From: Daucus carota subsp. sativus
Lineage: Eukaryota > Streptophyta > Magnoliopsida > Apiales > Apiaceae
DNA length: 64,000 nucleotides
Reading direction: 5' to 3'
Assembly: GCF_001625215.2 (NCBI RefSeq)
Contig: NC_030384.2
Location: 39,962,390 to 40,026,389, forward strand
In this document: positions 7,095 through 64,000 of the stretch, in pieces
How positions within the stretch are numbered: position 1 is the stretch's first letter
Layout of the letters: each line of letters opens with the position of its first letter
The notes under the pieces: model-generated
The model's database searches: none
Seen by the model: only the letters and a program-made list of their open reading frames with translations
What the model was told of the DNA's origin: nothing
Position numbers and translations under genes: made by a program

Positions 7095-7118
7095 GGGGGG
7101 GGGGGGGGGGGAGGGGGG
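7095..7118 (+). repeat. Poly(G) tract
   Basis: Seventeen consecutive G residues (7095-7111), one A and six more G residues form a homopurine tract in otherwise AT-rich DNA. It could form quadruplex DNA and is prone to length change or sequencing error. It lies 160 bp upstream of the hairpin at 7276. Confidence 0.85.
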
Positions 7119-7275: not shown

Positions 7276-7489
7276 GCTTGTTCATCAAATTCAAGCTCTC
7301 TCTCTTGGTCTGGAACTGTCATCAAAATTCCATTGTCCTGCCTTCTCTGATCAAAGTTGTGGTCTAATAAATTTGTATTCGGTCATTTGTGCTTCCATAT
7401 GGAAGCACAACTTTGATCAGAGAAGGCAGGACAATGGAATTTTGATGACAGTTCCAGACCAAGAGAGAGCTTGGATTTGATGAACAAGC
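7276..7489. ncRNA. Long near-perfect hairpin, candidate MIRNA-type or hairpin siRNA precursor
   Basis: Arm 7276-7361 is the reverse complement of 7406-7489 with about one substitution and one two-base CT-repeat difference over 84-86 bp. The loop is about 44 nt. The loop itself contains a 24-bp palindrome (TTGTGCTTCCATATGGAAGCACAA, 7388-7411 in two halves around CATATG). Near-perfect long arms are typical of young plant MIRNA genes or of hairpins feeding siRNA production, as known from inverted-duplication origins. I do not recognise a conserved miRNA in either arm. No clear target-site duplication flanks it, so a plain MITE is less favoured but not excluded. Confidence 0.5.
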
Positions 7490-8889
7490 TGAACTTTAAG
7501 ATATAAATGAGGAAAATCATGGACCATTATCTGACTGAACATTCAAGTTTCCTTGCAGCAATTGACAAAAAAAGAAATGAAAAAACTCATTAATCACCTT
7601 TTAGACCCTAACTGTGCTCCCGAGTTTTTATCGAGAGAAGAGAATAGAAGAGAAAAGAAGGTAAAACAAGAGAAGTGATATAAAAGTTCAACTGAGATCT
7701 TTCACGTGCTCCCGAGTTTATAATTTGGAAGAAGAGAAGATTTTGAAAAAAATGATATATATGGAAATATTGATAATGTTATGTGTGAGGATCCATTGCA
7801 ATCTTTCCAAAACCGGAGAGAATTTTTGATAGAAAATTTTTAAAAAATTTCTCTATGCTTCTCTTCCCTTACCAGCACGATTACAAAAGAATTTTTGCAA
7901 ATTTCTCCTCTTCTTTTCTCTTTCCTACATTTAGAAAGTTGGGAGCACCTACCTCACAGTCAGTACACTTTACAAATTCAAAACCCAGATATCAACATCA
8001 TCATTCTTTCTACTAAAGTTTAAAGGAAAAAACCATTTCTAAAAGAGCTATTAAGATGAAAATAGCACCAACTGAAACAGGACTATACCAAAAAAAATTA
8101 AAAAAAATCAAAATTTGAATCTATGATTGGACTATCATGTGGCAAACTAACTGCAATGAATCCCTTTCTGCCGGATGAATGACATATTATCTATTACCTT
8201 TTTTCAGTTATGATTATAAAGCTGTCTAAAAATCTAAAATAAAGTTTTTCTTGTTTCCCTTTTAACATGATACACAATCTATACTATTATATAAAAGGCG
8301 AACGAAGGATAATATGTAAGTACGTTTTTGGCACTATCACACAGGTTGTAAACTGGGTTTAAGCTAGTATTGAACATACAGATACTGACACTAGTACAAG
8401 GACATAGTTGCTTGTATAACCAGGAAGTTGCTTGCTGCTTATTTTTTAAGATTGCTGTAAATTAAAGTCTCCTCACCATATTAAATCACATAAAAAATAC
8501 ATCAAGATTCTAAATTTAATCCTTCATCCCTCTATCTTATCACAGTTCTATAGTACAACATGCATTCTGCTTTACTCATGACTGAGAACACATCGGAAGT
8601 CAGCATGAAAGCCAACTTTACAGCTTAAAGCTTCGTTCTCACAGTAATTGGGTGATATTACACCTGGCGATATGTCATCACTGTAAAACAATTGGCTGAT
8701 TCAGCATAATGCACTCAACAGCAAAAAACTCCCGAATTATATTGCAAACATGTCTAGACTTCTATTATTTTATCTTAGTATTATGCCTCTGGTTGTAATA
8801 TCCATATTAACAAATATAAGCACAAGGTTTATTTAGCAAAGAGGATGAGAAAATTGAGATCTGAGTGGTAGTAGGAGAAAAAGTGATAC

Positions 8890-13436: not shown

Positions 13437-13618
13437 TTTCTAATGTGTGCCCTTGGGCACATAATAAGCACCAACTTTTATGAAAATGACTTGTTTTGAT
13501 TGGTGGAATTGATGTGAATGCAGGGGGCCATTTACATTTATTATCCATCCACCAATCAAAAGTTAGAATTCTCATGAGAGTTAGTGACTATTGTGTGCAC
13601 TTGGGCACACCATAGAAA
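13437..13618. mobile_element. MITE with about 70-bp terminal inverted repeats
   Basis: The left end TTCTAATGTGTGCCCTTGGG and the reverse complement of the right end TTTCTATGGTGTGCCCAAGT match well, and the similarity continues through TTTTGATTGGTGGA in both arms. Only about 40 bp separates the arms. No coding capacity is present. Superfamily is not certain because I could not define the target duplication. Confidence 0.75.
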
Positions 13619-13840: not shown

Positions 13841-14536
13841 TTAAGCCGTAAAAAAGGGAATTACACATCTCAAAGAATCCTTAGCCTCAAACAAAGGTGT
13901 TTGAGGATCAGAAGATCTATAAGAAGACGGATGAGTAGGTGGCCTAGTAGTAGTATCACTGTGATTCCTCTTTGCAGCACTGGTAATGAAGGAAGAACAA
14001 GATCCCCTTGATGTTTTCTTCGAGATGAGCCTTGAAGAAGCACTCTTGGGAATAATATGACTACTCATCATCTGCTGATTTGATCTTTGGCTCTCTCCGT
14101 ATAAACCCACGTAGCTTTTACAAGACTTGAGCTTCTTGTTGTATGGATGCTCTGGCTTGGCTAAATCTTCCAAGCAACTCACATTTGATAAATCAGTGAA
14201 AGATTGTGACTTCCCTTCAAAATGTCTAGACAAACCCCTTCTGCAAAAACAAAAATATGCAAGTCAGTAAAATAAGTCCTTATTTTTGGCCGTTGAGACG
14301 GGCCAAGTACCCTTGCATATGTAAAGGACTTACTTGATGGGGAGTTGTTGAAGAAGGGAGGACATATCATTCAAAGAAGTAGGACTATGATCTTCAACAT
14401 CAGAAAAATCAGAAGAAGCAGCACTCGAAATCTCATCAGAGGAGCTAGCTGAGAGGCTGAAGTCTTCAGAACCTTGATCATCTAGTTGCACACCATAACG
14501 CTTCTTGGCTTGTACATCAAAAGAAGCAAACCCCAT
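13841..14536 (-). CDS. OXIDATIVE STRESS 3 (OXS3)-like protein
   Basis: Two exons, 14334-14536 and 13841-14240, encode 200 residues on the minus strand. The junction restores the family hallmark LPIKRGLSRHFEGKSQSF followed by SCLEDLAKPEHPYNKKLK, which spans residues 65-100. An upstream Ser/Asp-rich stretch (SASSSDEISSAASSDFSD) is typical. OXS3-family proteins are nuclear stress-tolerance factors whose overexpression protects against heavy metal and oxidative stress; the biochemical role is not settled. The C-terminal third is basic and Ser-rich and ends SLRCVIPFFTA. The neighbours give no further hint of function. Confidence 0.85.
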
Positions 14537-19321: not shown

Positions 19322-20988
19322 CTAAAAAGACACCCGGATATTGAGAAGCGCCATAAGCTGAGAAATAAACTCGGGGTGAGCTGGCCAGGCTGCTCCAGTC
19401 ACCAAATTCCCATCAGTGTAGCATCGAGTTATCGGATCGGGTTCTAACCATGTTGCACCAGCCAAGACCACATCAAGTTTCACAGCAGGGTATGCAGTGC
19501 ATTTCTTGCCCTGTATGCAATCAATAATTTAGAAAAATGAGTAGAAGTCCAAGTCTTTAACGCTGGACTAGCACGAGGATAACATACTAAGAGCAATAAT
19601 AAATTGATTTATTTTTTGAATATAACAAATCAATGAAGATGAAAAAAGTGCTGATTTGTTATTAGAGAGAAGTGTATATGAACTCTTCCTTTAAATGAGG
19701 TGAATAGATTACCTTGAGGACACCGGCGGCTGCCAAAATTTGTTGCCCCTGGCAGATGGATGCTACTGGCTTTCCGGCTTCCATAAAGTCCTTCACCAGT
19801 TTGATGACAGTCTCATCTAAAGCCAAGTATTCTGCTGCTCTGCCTCCAGGAATGACAAGAGCATCATAGCTTGAAGCATCAAGGCCTTCATAGCTGGCTG
19901 TTAGCTTGAAAAGGCGACCTAGTTTCTCACTATAAGTTTGGGCACCCTCAAAATCGTGGACAGCTGTGACACATTTTTCACCCGCCGCCTTCTGGGGACA
20001 GACTGCATCGACATGACAACCAATAGCTTGAAGGGCCTGAAAAGGAACTCCGACTTGGTAGTCTTCCATGTAATCCTGTAGGAAAAATGCATTCCAACAA
20101 GTGGATAAGAAAAATTGTCAATGTTATAAGGCCAACTTCAAATTGCAAAACAGCTGAACCTTTTATTTTTTTAATTACCCCGCAGAGGAACAGAATCCTT
20201 TTGTTTGAGCCAGTTATAGTGCCTCCTAGTGCCTTGATGAAATGGTGGAGGTACTCTGCATGGCCATAATATGTAGCCGCCGTGATGATATTTCCATCGG
20301 CAGTGCATTTAGCCAAGGTATCTGCTTCCACCCAATGACCACCCGCGGCACTGAGTAATGGTTTCAAAGTGATGTATCCAGTGCATTTTCGGCCTTTAAT
20401 TATATCTGCAGCTGCTAAAATTAACTGGCCATGGCAAATAGCACCAATTGGCTTTCCAGACCTGGAAAACACTTTCACCAATTCCAGCACAGATTTATCC
20501 GTTGCTAGATATTCTGGAGCACGTCCTCCAGGTACCAGCAGCCCATCGTACTTGTCAGCTTCAATCTCATCAAAAGTCGCATTCAAGACAAAATTGTGAC
20601 CTCTTGCCTCAGAGTAGGTCTGTCAATATCATTAGATATAACAAAAATTCAGGTTTTCAGGAAGCCTTGTAAATAAAATAAAATCTACAGAATAGAGAAG
20701 AGATAGAGAGACCTGATATTGATACGATTCCTGTTGAACAGCAGTGGTACAAATATCACCAGCTTTCTTGCCAGGACAAACAGCGTCTACTGATATTCTA
20801 TATGCTTGTAATGCTTGAAATGGAACCATCACCTGTTCAGTAATAGTAACCACAATTAGCTTAGAAACTACAGATTCTAGTGTAAATAAGCATAAATACA
20901 TTTACTTGTAGTCACATACTTCCCAATCTTCCATGTAATCGCCGCATAGCATAAGAACACTCTTACTCGCAGATTTAGAGCTCGCCAT
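19322..20988 (-). CDS. DJ1D: DJ-1 homolog D (two-domain DJ-1/PfpI glyoxalase III-like), copy A
   Basis: Five exons (20920-20988, 20713-20832, 20179-20619, 19713-20075, 19322-19510) encode 393 residues, matching the roughly 390-residue DJ-1D family. It is built of two tandem DJ-1/PfpI domains, about residues 8-195 and 205-393. Family members convert methylglyoxal to lactate without glutathione. Domain 1 has the nucleophile elbow AICHGQ with Cys at about residue 125 and the acidic GDYMED near residue 20. Domain 2 has SICQGQ with Cys at about 318, so the His that normally follows the nucleophile is Gln (codon at 19749-19751). The tandem paralogue at 23023-26526 keeps His in both domains. Domain 2 of this copy may therefore be weak or altered; that is inference. 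Confidence 0.94.
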
Positions 20989-21929
20989 CTTTGAGATGCC
21001 TTTTGAGAACTTACTGAATTGAGGGTCTGAGCTGAAGTGAGTGTGTTTGTGCATGCGAAAGAGATTTTATATTGTTACGAGGGAGAGTTTCTGCGAGTTA
21101 ACTGACCACAAGAGTATACGTTTCCACGTGTAAACTAAAACGGAAAAATCCAAATTTTTTTCCTAAATCTAAGTTTGGGAATATATGATTGGTTCCGCAC
21201 ACATTAATAATAATGAGATATTTTGTATATACATAAATCACCCAATTAAAACTAATCATGTGTCTACCATATCATTTGGAAAGGAAAATTTGCTAAGGAA
21301 ATTTGAGATACTTAGCATTACTCAATTGAAAGAAATAATTAATAGTTGATTGTTTCCAAAAGTAACGTGAATGCTCGAGGATCAAATTTGAGCTTATGAA
21401 AAAGTAAACTGACCACAAGAGTAAGTTTTTACCAGTAAACCGAATAAAACGCTCGCATTTAAATGCTGCTGCTACAGATAATCTGAATACTTGACAATCA
21501 TAATAAATACTTTTACAAAAATCATATATAATTAAATATTATAGGACCTGACAAAAAAAATATTATAAGAATCAGTTTTCACAGGTTAACTGAATAATTG
21601 ACCAGTTAAGATTAAGAAACGGAAGAAACCGTATGTTTGAGTAGCTGAAACAGAAGAAACTGTTTGTGTGAATAACCGATAACCAGAGAATATTTTAGGG
21701 TTATAACTTATAAGAGTTTGGTTTCACAAGTAAACAAAATATCTTCTCGAATTACAGGATATATATAATATATATATTTTTACACCCATTAGACTAGATA
21801 TTAATAGAAATATTATTGGAGTGAGTTTCTACGTGTAAATATTTCTTACAAGTAACTTTTTTTTTTTCAAAGTTTCTTACAAGTAACCTTGATCCTTAAT
21901 GATCAAAATTAAATACCATAACAGTCATG

Positions 21930-22069
21930 TACTGTAAGTAAGTTGCATAAGTTGACTGTCAAGATTATCAGAAGAGTCTGAGTGTATAACGTGTACATGT
22001 ACCGTAAGTAAGTTGCATAAGTTGACTGTCAAAATTATCAGAAGAGTCTGAGTGTATAACATGTACGTG
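21930..22069. repeat. 70-bp tandem duplication
   Basis: Two adjacent 70-bp units (21930-21999 and 22000-22069) share GTAAGTAAGTTGCATAAGTT and AGAAGAGTCTGAGTGTATAAC with only a few substitutions. They lie about 950 bp upstream of DJ-1D copy A, between the two DJ-1D genes. Confidence 0.85.
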
Positions 22070-22306
22070 TATGAGTTCGGTTTCCATAAACACCTGAATA
22101 TCAACGTAAATATGAATTAGTGGAACTTTCCACTAATATTTTTCAGGAAGATTCCTGTTGAAATTTCATATAAGTACGATATATTAATAAGACTAGAAAA
22201 AATGCATGTCAATATTTCTTTCTTTTCTGTTTTTCCTTTCTTTTGGGAAGTGAATGTCAAGTGAGATAAATTTTCTAGCTCTTTATTTCTAACATCTTAT
22301 GCTTAA

Positions 22307-22680
22307 GAGCAAGTCCAACAATGTCCTAGCAAATGCCCTATAAATATAATAAAATAATGTGTCCTAGTGATTTAGGACATCATCTTCATATATCAACTCC
22401 AACAACATGCCTCATTATTGTGCCTTATTATTAAAATATTAATATATTTAAATTGTTATTGGAGGGAAATGAAATGGAAAGAAGAGAGAGATGTAGTGGA
22501 ATGGTAGGAAATTATTTTTTTATTGAATAGGGCATGCATATTGGTGCCTCAAAAATAAGGCAATTGTTACATGTCCTAGTGTTTTAAGGCACCACTAGGA
22601 CATTGTTGGAGCATTGATTTGCTTCACATGCCTTATATTTTGATTTAGGACATTAATATAGGACACTCTTGGACTTGCTC
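22307..22680. mobile_element. Tourist-like (PIF/Harbinger) MITE
   Basis: The 374-bp segment has terminal inverted repeats GAGCAAGTCCAACAATGTCC and, on the other strand, GAGCAAGTCCAAGAGTGTCC. It is flanked by TAA at 22304-22306 and 22681-22683, the three-base target typical of PIF/Harbinger. It has no coding capacity and lies between the two DJ-1D genes. Confidence 0.82.
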
Positions 22681-23022
22681 TAAGCGGACTTCAAATGTTT
22701 CCGGTGGCTGGCTTTAGCAGCCCGAAAGTCGATCAGAAACTTCAATTGCAAACATGATATGTTAAGATGTAATATTTAGAACAGTGCTGGGAAACATGTA
22801 GTATGGTATTAGCTTTGCCAATTCAAATTACTCAAATGGGCAACTAAATCACTAAACTCAACCTGGCTTACTTCACAATGAAGGTCAAAAAGACATGCCA
22901 CAGGATATAAGTATGATATTTCGTCGTCACCAACATAGAAAGCCATTTTATTGCGCCTTTGGGAAGCTATCAGTTCTTCAGATACAAGTCACAAGTTACA
23001 AACACTTCACATGATTCACAGA

Positions 23023-26000
23023 CTAAAAAGAGACCTGAATACTCAGAAGTGACATAAGCTGAGAAATAAACTCAGGGTGAGCTGGCCAGGCTGCTCCAGT
23101 CACCAAATTCCCATCAGTATAGCATCGAGTTATTGGATCAGGTTCTAACCATGTTGCACCAGCCAAGACCACGTTAAGTTTCACAGCAGGGTATGCAGTG
23201 CATTTCTTGCCCTACATGCAATTAATAATTTAGAAAACTGATAGCAGCATAAAGCGTAGACAGTTTTTGTTTTATGGAAAGCACAACCAGATAAATCAAA
23301 ATTAAATAGAAGTCAAAGTCCATAATGCCTTTTCTTATGAGGAATGCCATATTAGGAGTAAAACTTTTGTATACGACATATTAATAGGCTTCAAGGTGAC
23401 TAAAACAAAATCCACTAATATTTACCTGAACATCACTTCAGAAAATTAAAGGATCATTTTATTATTAGCAAAGAAATTCTCTTGTTAATTTCTTGAACAA
23501 ACTCTTTCTAGTTTCAAAGGCTATTCTACAGGGTGGACATACAACTCCAAAAGAGAGAGAGAAGATATAAAACCATTAATCAGAATTCAATATATAAGAT
23601 AAGCAAGCAGAGTAATTGCTAATAATCAAGTATTAAAAGGGCAAAGGCGCCCTCTTTACACTACTTTGAAAATAAAGGGTACAAAATAATGACCAATTGT
23701 GCATTACACACAAGCATACCCGCTAATATTTTTTTATTGTGCGTGTAGCTTGTGTAATTAGCCAGAACTATGGTAGGTATGGTGATTAGTGTTTATTCCA
23801 TTGGTCAAATAACTAAAATCTTGTTTCAAGACTAATACATAAAATATACAAAATATATATGGGACTAATATTTACGTGCGTTAAAACTTTCTCATCAATA
23901 AATTACATAGAATTTCGAAAAAAAAATTACAAATTAACATTGACATTTTCCATATTCTGCCACTGCCTTCAAAAGCATATATATCAGATTTTTGCACTGA
24001 AGGACTCAAACTGATAAAAAATTTAGTAGCCTCTAGAAATTTTCTTCACCCAATTTCAATTTCCTCTTGTAGAAACATGTAGGAGGACTAGGTTTTGGTG
24101 TCCATACAATTACATCTCTGAGCTTATCTTCATCCAATTTCATTTTCCATACGAGCATAATACATGTAGTAAAATACATTAAGATAAGTTACGTGTAAAA
24201 AATGTAAATACTATATACATAGTTACATAAATTTTAACAGCAGTAAGGTGAATAGACTATAGAGTACCTTGAGAACACCTGCAGCTGACAAAACTTGTTG
24301 CCCATGGCAGATGGATGCTACTGGCTTTCCAGCTTCCATAAATTCTCTTACTAGTTTGAGGACACTCTCGTCCAAAGCTAAGTATTCTGGTGCTCGGCCT
24401 CCAGGAATGACAAGAGCATCATAGCTTGAAGCATCTAGACCTTCAAAACTGGCTGTTAATGTAAAAAGGTGACCAGGTTTCTCACTATAAGTTTGGTCCC
24501 CCTCAAAATCATGAACAGCTGTCGCGCATATATCACCTGCCTTCTTCTTTGGACAGATTGCATCTACATGGCAGTCAATAGCTTGAAGGGCCTGAAAAGG
24601 AACTACTACTTCGTAGTCTTCCATGTAATCCTGTAGAGAACATGCAGTCAAACAATATAGAATATTGCATATACAAAACTTTGCAATATAACAAATTTCT
24701 TCAGCTTATCAGCGTGCAGAACTCTGGACAACGAGTTCACGGGATTCTAATACATAACTGTACTCGTAAAGCTGTAAAAGCCAGCATTAAAATATTAAAC
24801 AGCCATCAGTATCATTAACTGAAGTATATAATCAAATTAATTCATATGCTATATGAGTGCATTATTTATTAATTTAACGATTATAATACTATTTAAAGGG
24901 TGATGAAGATAATTACTACTGCAAAACCCTTCAACCTAACCGACTCTCTTGATCTATCAAGAAGTACAGAGATGGTGACAGGAACATTATACTGAGCATG
25001 CTCTGTATTTAAAATCATTCTCAAATCTAAACTACACACACACTATGAACAATACTAGTTTACAAAGGGTCGTAGTTTGTAGCGCTGATGAATTGACTAT
25101 AGCCTTGAAAAACTTGTTAGTTGTTTGACGGGTACTGGTTTAAAGTTAATAAGCACGGTTAATGATAACAGGAACCTCAATCCCATGTGTTAGTGTTTGC
25201 ATTAGCAATTTGATAGTTTAGAAACGGAACCACATTCCCTTATGATAGGTAAATCATTCCCTTCATACCTCTTGGTATTCCTATCATTCTCATTTCCATT
25301 AATCTCTATGCCTGCACAATACATTTACATCAACCATCAACAAGCCCCCCATTTTTTTCAATAATAAATATTATTATTCCAATACTAGGTCCGCATAAAA
25401 TGAATATCTATTTGCAAGCACAGTTTAATAGGTTAATCTGTCCTAGCTTGAGCAAAAATAAACAAATAAAATCAACTAACCCCACAGAGGAACAAAATCC
25501 TTTTATCTGAGCCAGTTATAGTGCCTCCCAGTGCCTTGATAAAATGGTTGATGTACTCTGGATGCCCCATATATGTAGCAGCTGTAATGAGATTGCCATC
25601 AACATGGCATCTAGCCAAAGTATCTGCTTCAATCCAGTGAGCACCTGCGGAGATGAGTACCGGCTTCAAAGCAGGATACGCAGTGCATTTTCGGCCTTTA
25701 AGTATATCTGCCGCTGCTAAAATCAACTGCCCATGGCAAACAGTGGCAATCGGCTTTCCAGAATTGGAAAAAGATTTCACCAACTCTTGCACAGATTTAT
25801 CTATCGCAAGATATTCTGGAGCACGTCCTCCTGGTATCACTATTCCATCATACTTGCTGGCTTCAATCTCGTCAAAATTTGCATTTAAAACAAAGTTGTG
25901 GCCTCTTGACTCAGAGTAGTTCTGCCAACATTAATAAGGATGAGAAAGTTTTAGAAAGCCTTGTAAATAAAGTTGATAAAAGGAAACTTTCCAGTTTGGT

Positions 26001-26704: not shown

Positions 26705-26785
26705 GTGGACGTGCCGGAGTGGTTATCGGGCATGACTAGAAATCATGTGGGTTCGCCCGCGCAGGTTCGAATCCTGCCGTCCACG
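26705..26785 (+). tRNA. tRNA-Ser (AGA)
   Basis: The 81-bp sequence folds as a class II tRNA. The acceptor stem GTGGACG pairs with CGTCCAC, followed by discriminator G. The anticodon loop CTAGAAA at 26736-26742 gives anticodon AGA at 26738-26740. A long variable arm (GTGGGTTCGCCCGC region) fits serine. The A box (GTGCCGGAGTGG) and the B box GGTTCGAATCC are intact, and a T run (CTTTTTG) follows as pol III terminator. It is intronless. Confidence 0.95.
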
Positions 26786-58720: not shown

Positions 58721-58948
58721 CTCCTTTTATTTTAAAATATAGATCGTTTGATTTTTTGACACACACTTCTAATTCTTTGACTGTATAGTTAAAATCATGA
58801 TTCTTAAAATTTTCTTTTTTTTGAATAAAAATATATGATTAATATTATAATTCAAAAAAAAAAATTTAGAATAACAATTTTAACTATGCTGTCAAGCGAC
58901 TTAGAAGTGTGTGTTAAAGAGTAAGGCGATTTATATTTCAAATGGTGG
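58721..58948. mobile_element. Stowaway MITE with long inverted repeats
   Basis: The 228-bp segment folds almost end to end: left CTCCTTTTATTTTAAAATAT and GACACACACTTCTAA, right (reverse complement) CCACCATTTGAAATATAAAT and AACACACACTTCTAA. TA flanks both ends (58719-58720 and 58949-58950), the Tc1/Mariner target. No coding capacity. Confidence 0.75.
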
Positions 58949-62504: not shown

Positions 62505-62604
62505 TCAAGTTTTTGTATATAAATGACACCCCTCAGCGCTAAGGTGCATAGCTACAACGTACTGCTTTTCATCACTCTGTTTCGCGAACTAACAACCAAA
62601 AACA
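62505..62604 (+). promoter_or_regulatory. Core promoter and leader of the second AAE gene
   Basis: TTTTTGTATATAAATGA at about 62509-62525 is a TATA box about 80-95 bp before the ATG at 62605. An ATG at 62523 heads a different frame (about 125 codons) that overlaps the gene start and could act as an upstream start if included in the transcript. Confidence 0.5.
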
Positions 62605-64000
62605 ATGAACGCATTGGAACCGAATCCCGCGAATTCATCACCATTCACCCCAATCTCTTTCTTGGAGAGAGCTGCGGTTGTTTACGGCGACTCTCCTTCT
62701 CTAATCTACAACCAAACCATGTATACTTGGGCACAAACTCACCGTCGCTGCCTTCAACTCGCCTCCTCGATATCGTCCCTCTCTATCTCCCCCGGAGACG
62801 TTGTTTCTGTTCTCGCTCCCAACATTCCCGCCATGTACGAGCTCCACTTTGCTGTGCCAATGTGCGGCGCGGTACTCAACTGCATCAACACTCGCCTTGA
62901 TGCACGTGCCATCTCAACTCTGCTTACTCACTCTGAGTCGAAACTCGTCTTTGTTGATTACCAAATGGCTTCGGTTGTTTTGGAAGCTCTCTCGTGCTTT
63001 CCTCTGCACTCGAGGCCGAAACTAGTTATGATCACGGAAGATGATCAAGCTTCATCTCCGGAGTTTGATTTTACGTATGAGAGGCTAGTTGAAAGAGGTG
63101 ATCAGTCGTTTGATTGGATCAGGCCGCGGTCAGAATGGGATCCGATTGTTCTTAATTATACTTCTGGCACAACAGCCTCCCCGAAAGGAGTTGTTCTTAG
63201 CCACCGTAGCGCATTTCTTAAGACTATCGATGCTTTGCTCGAATGGTCTGTACCGAAACAACCTGTTTTTCTATGGGCCTTACCGATGTTTCATGCCAAC
63301 GGTTGGGGTTATACTTGGGGGATGGCTGTTGTGGGAGGGACTAATATTTGTTTGAGAAGATTTGACTCCGATTTGATCTATGATAAGATAGTCAAGCATG
63401 GAGTGACTCATATGTGTGGAGCTCCGGTTGTTTTAAACATGTTATCCAACGATCCTGACCGCGAGAAGTTAACAAGTCCGGTTCATATTCTAACAGCTGG
63501 AGCTCCCCCTCCTGCTGCTGTGTTAATGCGGACCGAGGAGTTAGGATTCACGGTGAGTCACGGCTATGGTCTTACAGAAGTTGGGGGATTAGTAGTGATG
63601 TGTTTGTGGAAACCGGAGTGGAATGGTTTGCCTGCAAGGGAGCGAGCGAGGCTCAAGGCGCGACAAGGAGTGAGGACGATTGGCTGCACGGAAGTGGATG
63701 TGGTGGATCCGGAGTCAGGCCTTGGTGTGAAGCGCGATGGGGTGACTGTGGGGGAGGTGGTGCTGAAAGGCGGGACTGTGATGTTAGGCTATTTGAAAGA
63801 CAAGGAAGGTACTTTGCAGTGCATGAAGCAAAACTGGTTTTACACGGGTGATGTTGGAGTCATGCATGAGGATGGATATGTGGAGATCAAGGATCGGTCT
63901 AAGGATGTGATTATTAGTGGCGGCGAAAATGTGAGTAGCGTTGAGGTGGAATCCGTGTTGTACCTGCATCCGGCTGTGAATGAGGCCGCCGTGGTGGCGA
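62605..64000 (+). CDS. Acyl-activating enzyme (clade VI acyl-CoA synthetase), second copy, cut by window edge
   Basis: The frame from ATG 62605 stays open for 465 codons to the last base, so the C-terminal part (about 100 residues, including the final Lys motif and any PTS1) lies outside. It starts MNALEPNPANSSPFTPISFL, with ERAAVVYGDSPSLIYNQTMY. Motifs are YTSGTTASPKGVV near residue 190, MFHANGWGYTWGMAVVGG, AGAPPPAA, YGLTEVGG, TGDVG and DRSKDVIISGGENVSSVEVE. The region where the gene at 595 has an intron (GDVVSVLAPN here) is continuous, so this copy lost or never gained it. Being the same type as the first gene, it should make acyl-CoA; the substrate is not readable. Differences such as MFHANGWGY for MFHCNGWTF in the pocket region suggest a different acid. 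Confidence 0.93.
   Translation, partial: MNALEPNPANSSPFTPISFLERAAVVYGDSPSLIYNQTMYTWAQTHRRCLQLASSISSLSISPGDVVSVLAPNIPAMYELHFAVPMCGAVLNCINTRLDARAISTLLTHSESKLVFVDYQMASVVLEALSCFPLHSRPKLVMITEDDQASSPEFDFTYERLVERGDQSFDWIRPRSEWDPIVLNYTSGTTASPKGVVLSHRSAFLKTIDALLEWSVPKQPVFLWALPMFHANGWGYTWGMAVVGGTNICLRRFDSDLIYDKIVKHGVTHMCGAPVVLNMLSNDPDREKLTSPVHILTAGAPPPAAVLMRTEELGFTVSHGYGLTEVGGLVVMCLWKPEWNGLPARERARLKARQGVRTIGCTEVDVVDPESGLGVKRDGVTVGEVVLKGGTVMLGYLKDKEGTLQCMKQNWFYTGDVGVMHEDGYVEIKDRSKDVIISGGENVSSVEVESVLYLHPAVNEAAVVA

Follow-up and report, generated by a model that had tools for sequence, protein, structure and literature searches.

A near-perfect zero-spacer palindrome found once in the carrot genome, probably a recent local inverted duplication

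Hairpin RNA genes of plants are described as originating commonly from duplicated genes, pseudogenes or transposons (PMC3237417, PMC1790633). The young gene-derived MIRNA loci MIR161 and MIR163 represent the first of these sources, while the endogenous inverted-repeat siRNA loci IR71 and IR2039 have a near-perfect self-complementary stem and do not need RDR. According to PMC4687873, long near-perfect stems occur in both young miRNA precursors and endogenous inverted-repeat siRNA precursors. Another route is template switching, which in the account of PMC8794818 can produce a perfect stem in a single event and is put forward there as a source of microRNA loci; that study presents microRNA loci consistent with template switching and draws its case from rRNA genes and from microRNA loci of mammals. 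In apes, the majority of the short-range switch patterns described lead to single inverted repeats (PMC7954356). In yeast, short inverted repeats are described as priming inverted duplications, chiefly in nuclease-deficient strains (PMC10622511, PMC7999016).

The locus described here lies on contig C4 of the carrot genome, within a window of 64,000 nucleotides (the whole stretch of DNA that was analysed). It is a 214-base hairpin at positions 7276-7489, a stretch nearly identical to its own reverse complement. With the template-switch hairpins (PMC8794818; great apes, PMC7954356) it shares a local reverse-complement copy and a perfect stem of the kind made in one step, whereas here the stem is ~90 bp long, the host is a plant and the event is deduced without an outgroup. 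Its likeness to IR71 and IR2039 lies in the stem alone. Like MIR161 and MIR163, it is an inverted duplication able to form a foldback, but unlike them it is a hairpin for which no parent gene was found. The features of the locus are as follows.

7276..7398, + strand: left arm, 123 nt, including a 30-nt block missing on the right; 90/91 aligned columns identical
7399..7489, - strand: right arm, 91 nt, reverse complement of the left arm
7362..7391, no strand: 30-nt block present in the left arm only, flanked by direct repeats TTGTG; edges ambiguous by 5 nt
7387..7410, no strand: perfect 12+12 palindrome at the axis, the second palindrome of the initial annotation
7291..7303, no strand: differences between the arms, a substitution (7291) and a 2-nt slip in a CT run
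7611..7949 (approximate), no strand: MITE-like element with GTGCTCCCGAGTT.../...GGGAGCAC ends; partial matches at five loci (L007-L011)

The arms as first described, 7276-7361 (86 nt) and 7406-7489 (84 nt), are reverse complements, and a complementarity check found the initial annotation to be exact in giving them as about 85 bp long with one substitution and one CT slip. Complementarity is perfect over 64 nt (7298-7361 against 7406-7469), and the 2-nt slip and the single substitution lie beyond this core. When 7276-7398 was aligned with gaps to the reverse complement of 7399-7489, 90 of the 91 aligned columns were identical and two gaps were opened, one of 2 nt and one of 30 nt. The palindrome axis falls at 7398/7399 with zero spacer, at the sequence CTTCCAT/ATGGAAG. 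Mononucleotide shuffling of the loop gave a 7-bp zero-loop palindrome directly next to the 3' arm in only 19 of 200,000 trials, and chance is therefore an unlikely reason for the shared axis. The whole structure is one zero-spacer palindrome that is asymmetric near its tip. The asymmetry is the 30-nt block, bounded by one TTGTG at 7357-7361 and another 30 nt away at 7387-7391; an insertion on the left arm and a deletion on the right fit the sequence equally.

Inverted reads are a known long-read error, and a palindrome of this form might therefore be an assembly or library artefact. We regard this as very improbable, since the flanks are unlike each other, the duplication spans no more than about 100 bp, and the arms are set apart by the substitution, the slip and the 30-nt block.

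The hairpin is also predicted to be far more stable than shuffled sequence. On the + strand it folds at -163.2 kcal/mol against a mean of -56.4 for shuffled sequences (z -22), and on the - strand at -155.6 kcal/mol (z -23); for each strand, none of 200 shuffles folded as low. It contains the longest perfect stem of the window in a search with arms reaching out to 350 nt from each centre and simple repeats filtered out, and the runner-up measured 16 nt. Chance is no candidate for the hairpin, because its fold lies 22 standard deviations below the dinucleotide shuffles and the next stem in the window is this short. The initial annotation had proposed that the loop palindrome at CATATG competes with the main stem and so gives two alternative folds. 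We found that the two share one axis, and the minimum-energy fold contains the inner hairpin and the main stem together on both strands; we therefore see one fold, and competing folds are not supported. Folded as single-strand DNA, the central segment 7357-7410 gave -9.9 kcal/mol.

Further copies of the hairpin were sought in several ways. The whole 214-nt sequence matched only itself in its own 441-Mb, 11-contig genome. A 93-nt piece (7397-7489) searched at E up to 10 recovered the two arms only, and a translated 32-residue frame of the arm, searched against the genome at the same threshold, recovered its own locus only. Allowing up to three mismatches, the 24-mer 7312-7335 occurred in two places genome-wide, namely both arms (reversed control, 0). 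A 2.6-kb query around the hairpin found the hairpin here only, and no second hairpin or paralogous flank was present among its genome matches. Within the window, a blastn search for further arm copies gave chance-level matches only, and a plasmid collection gave no match.

The MITE-like element at 7611-7949, which lies outside the palindrome, served as a positive control for the copy search. With the 2.6-kb query it was partly matched at five other loci at 71-85% identity, so the search does reach diverged repeats. The terminal inverted repeat of the element is imperfect, at 76% over 41 columns. On the other side of the palindrome, the same query also found two matches, on C3 and C9, for positions 7095-7118, which read 17 G, one A and 6 G and are preceded by GAGAGA. 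Elsewhere in the window, 13437-13618 holds a diverged inverted repeat with 71-nt arms that are 75% complementary, perhaps an old MITE.

These searches bear on whether the palindrome is itself a MITE or fold-back transposon, either as the one copy to have survived or as a new arrival. Other elements of this genome that are MITEs, such as the one at 7611-7949 and L038 (see below), share its inverted-repeat anatomy, and another MITE does lie about 120 bp downstream of it. Those elements, however, have relatives and recognisable ends, whereas a second copy of the hairpin was recovered neither with its whole sequence nor with the 93-nt piece, the translated arm or the 24-mer 7312-7335. The initial annotation had stated that a large number of dispersed copies with common ends would make the hairpin a MITE; such copies were sought genome-wide and were not found, and the hairpin matched only itself. 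That annotation had also noted no clear target duplication, and we agree: no duplication of at least 4 nt is present at the palindrome ends. Shifting the ends by up to 6 nt each way and seeking at least 4 nt produced one 4-nt match, which we do not count as a target duplication, and the bases directly next to the unshifted ends (...CAT and TGA...) have no 2-3-nt repeat in common. Two features of the tests leave some room for a transposon: certain MITE superfamilies make 2- and 3-nt target duplications while the test with shifted ends covered those of at least 4 nt, and the genome DNA search leaves out very frequent words and scores best candidates only, so that a single-copy transposon relic is conceivable. 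We know of no TIR family that matches the hairpin ends, GCTTGTTC... With neither copies nor a target duplication found, a MITE origin is not our preferred explanation and we consider it unlikely, even though it deserves more weight than the other alternatives discussed here.

An argument for a transposon comes from the genome at large. In a comparison sample of 20 random 10-kb stretches from six contigs, 29 perfect stems of at least 16 nt were found after simple sequences were filtered out. The 25 of these that were listed were grouped by eye into seven elements, with a short palindrome (L031, 20 nt) left out, and among the stems listed the longest perfect arms of the seven measured 85, 67, 51, 48, 34, 23 and 18 nt. 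Again among the stems listed, 4 of the 20 stretches had a perfect stem of at least 48 nt and 2 of 20 had one of at least 64 nt; two of the four stems of at least 48 nt had a loop shorter than 100 nt (L038, 81 nt; L034, 4 nt). Relatives of the seven elements and of the hairpin were then sought in 289 kb of DNA from 29 sequences, less than 0.1% of the genome. Clear relatives were found for L038 and L037 and weak ones (64-67% identity) for L036 and L035:9096-9257, while L034, L035:7073-7490 and L022 had none in these 289 kb. Neither did the 7276-7489 hairpin, although a sample this small says little. The element L038:8518-8755 is Stowaway-like, with TACTCCCTCTG ends and a stem that is perfect over 67 nt. 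Relatives of it turned up in 10 of the 28 other sequences, one of them being the window, which demonstrates that long near-perfect hairpins can be MITEs in this genome; we take its relative in the window to be the element at 58.7 kb (58731-58942). L034:3791-3890, on the other hand, is a second near-perfect palindrome, with 48-nt arms and a 4-nt loop.

Near-perfect stems are thus not rare in this genome and some of them are MITEs. The statement that the arms are far better matched than the MITEs nearby holds inside the window but does not extend to the genome, given the four random stretches with comparable stems. The existence of other long perfect stems, some of them belonging to repeat families, counts against reading the palindrome as a local duplication. 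What distinguishes this hairpin is not its perfection but that the genome search found it once.

Our preferred explanation, to which we assign a probability of roughly 0.6, is that the palindrome is a recent single-copy local inverted duplication made by template switching or fold-back priming and not a transposon. We infer such an origin from the anatomy of the locus, and any choice of one arm as the original is of the same kind. The reverse-complement copy is local and contiguous, and the genome searches found it once, as a template switch would leave it. During DNA synthesis, the growing strand would have switched template near CTTCCAT/ATGGAAG, copied about 90-120 nt of the just-made strand in reverse and then returned to its template. 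The 30-nt central difference could be due to slippage from one TTGTG copy to the other while the event took place, or else to a deletion that one arm underwent afterwards. Spacers that are short or missing are described as raising the risk to genome stability (PMC7999016); in our view, instability of a spacerless palindrome would fit a later loss of its central symmetry. A point against this origin is size: at about 90 bp the event would exceed every template-switch-like rRNA pattern that PMC8794818 names, of which the largest has 59 bp.

One substitution in 91 columns corresponds to an age of about 0.8-0.9 My with a Poisson interval of 0.02-5 My, at rates of 6.1e-9 and 7e-9 per site and year. 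This is best read as a figure of roughly 1 My, and correction for the arm-to-arm comparison would push the true age older.

An inverted duplication may also start from a gene, and the initial annotation had favoured this source. The palindrome would then have arisen as MIR161 and MIR163 did, from a parent now lost, unassembled or too diverged. The arm is indeed open in one frame for 55 codons, and 16 Arabidopsis MIRNA loci, including MIR161 and MIR163, are described as resembling protein-coding genes (PMC1790633). However, with arms so alike, the parent should still match closely, and the DNA and protein searches of the genome described above recovered nothing beyond the locus itself; searching Pfam and PDB with the 32-residue arm frame at E up to 10 likewise gave nothing. 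The arms thus resemble no gene that we could find. The one exception to this picture is a second 24-mer, 7336-7359, which with up to three mismatches matched both arms and one further place, L018, at three mismatches (control, 0). By our own arithmetic, chance alone should give a 24-mer about 0.2 hits of this kind. Similarity of L018 to the stem extends to at most 34 nt at 82%, and the match sits between stretches that look coding, in a gene that from its translation is presumably Pelota-like. With three mismatches, hardly any extension and these surroundings, we treat L018 as a chance match and not as a parent or copy. A gene-derived origin accordingly finds little favour with us and is improbable.

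A local duplication by template switching or fold-back priming could nevertheless have consequences at the RNA level. Nothing in the sequence demonstrates that the palindrome is a gene. If transcribed, its RNA would be a long near-perfect hairpin that could feed siRNAs or a young miRNA. Plant MIRNA foldbacks have few mismatches and do not exceed about 300 nt, and the hairpin falls within these bounds; it equally has the long near-perfect self-complementary stem of an inverted-repeat siRNA locus. Because such stems are described for both classes (PMC4687873), the hairpin sequence alone cannot choose between MIRNA and siRNA. Long stem-loops of plants are reported to yield siRNAs of 21 nt (DCL4), 22 nt (DCL2) and 24 nt (DCL3), and young miRNAs are placed in an intermediate position as mainly DCL4 products (PMC4687873), or described as products of DCL1 and/or DCL4 accompanied by spurious siRNAs (PMC12825306; cf. 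PMC4211545). A transcribed hairpin would be expected to give mixed siRNAs from DCL4, DCL2 and DCL3 over one precise miRNA, and in our judgement the near-perfect pairing favours this outcome.

A true young MIRNA gene releasing one 21-22-nt duplex is doubtful by comparison. Hairpin length and stem stability permit it, and long foldbacks are described as giving young miRNAs, several of them DCL4-processed (PMC4687873, PMC4211545). Against it, an Rfam scan of the window at gathering scores left the hairpin unmatched, as the earlier remark that no conserved miRNA is visible would lead one to expect, although membership of a known family is not required of a young MIRNA locus. Two T-free stem cores of 15-16 nt were absent from the main text of the papers searched, a search that speaks for those cores and not for miRNAs elsewhere in the stem. 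For the 24-mer 7312-7335, the near-complementary sites in the genome are the arms alone. The initial interpretation as a whole, a young small-RNA gene candidate, is partly supported.

Most likely, the palindrome at present carries no function under selection and is best seen as raw material. As a single-copy palindrome with none of the usual sources of plant hairpin RNA genes in sight, it is a test case for the template-switch route. A later paper from the group behind the template-switch study of rRNA and microRNA loci reportedly deals with new miRNAs from template switching. Were the palindrome transcribed and diced, it would be a plant example of the parent-free route to hairpin RNA genes argued for in PMC8794818. 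A template-switch palindrome already transcribed and diced, a small-RNA gene caught at birth with neither parent gene nor transposon behind it, is a long shot on the sequence at hand. Judged by its sequence, it is an ordinary young palindrome.

The hairpin is situated between an AMP-binding frame ending at 2415 and DJ-1 frames that start from about 19.7 kb. Between these points no frame of at least 100 codons was recognised as a gene, in a survey confined to such long frames; the frame at 13844-14263 had no Pfam match. Seven of the 10 window frames submitted did match Pfam, as two AMP-binding enzymes, two DJ-1/PfpI proteins, an AAA helicase, LEA_2 and root-cap domains. The DJ-1/PfpI frames occupy two places on the minus strand within 19665-25930 and probably represent tandem genes. 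The AMP-binding enzyme genes (853-2415 and 62593-63999) are on the same strand at opposite ends of the window. A tRNA gene on the + strand at 26705-26785 is the sole Rfam match in the window.
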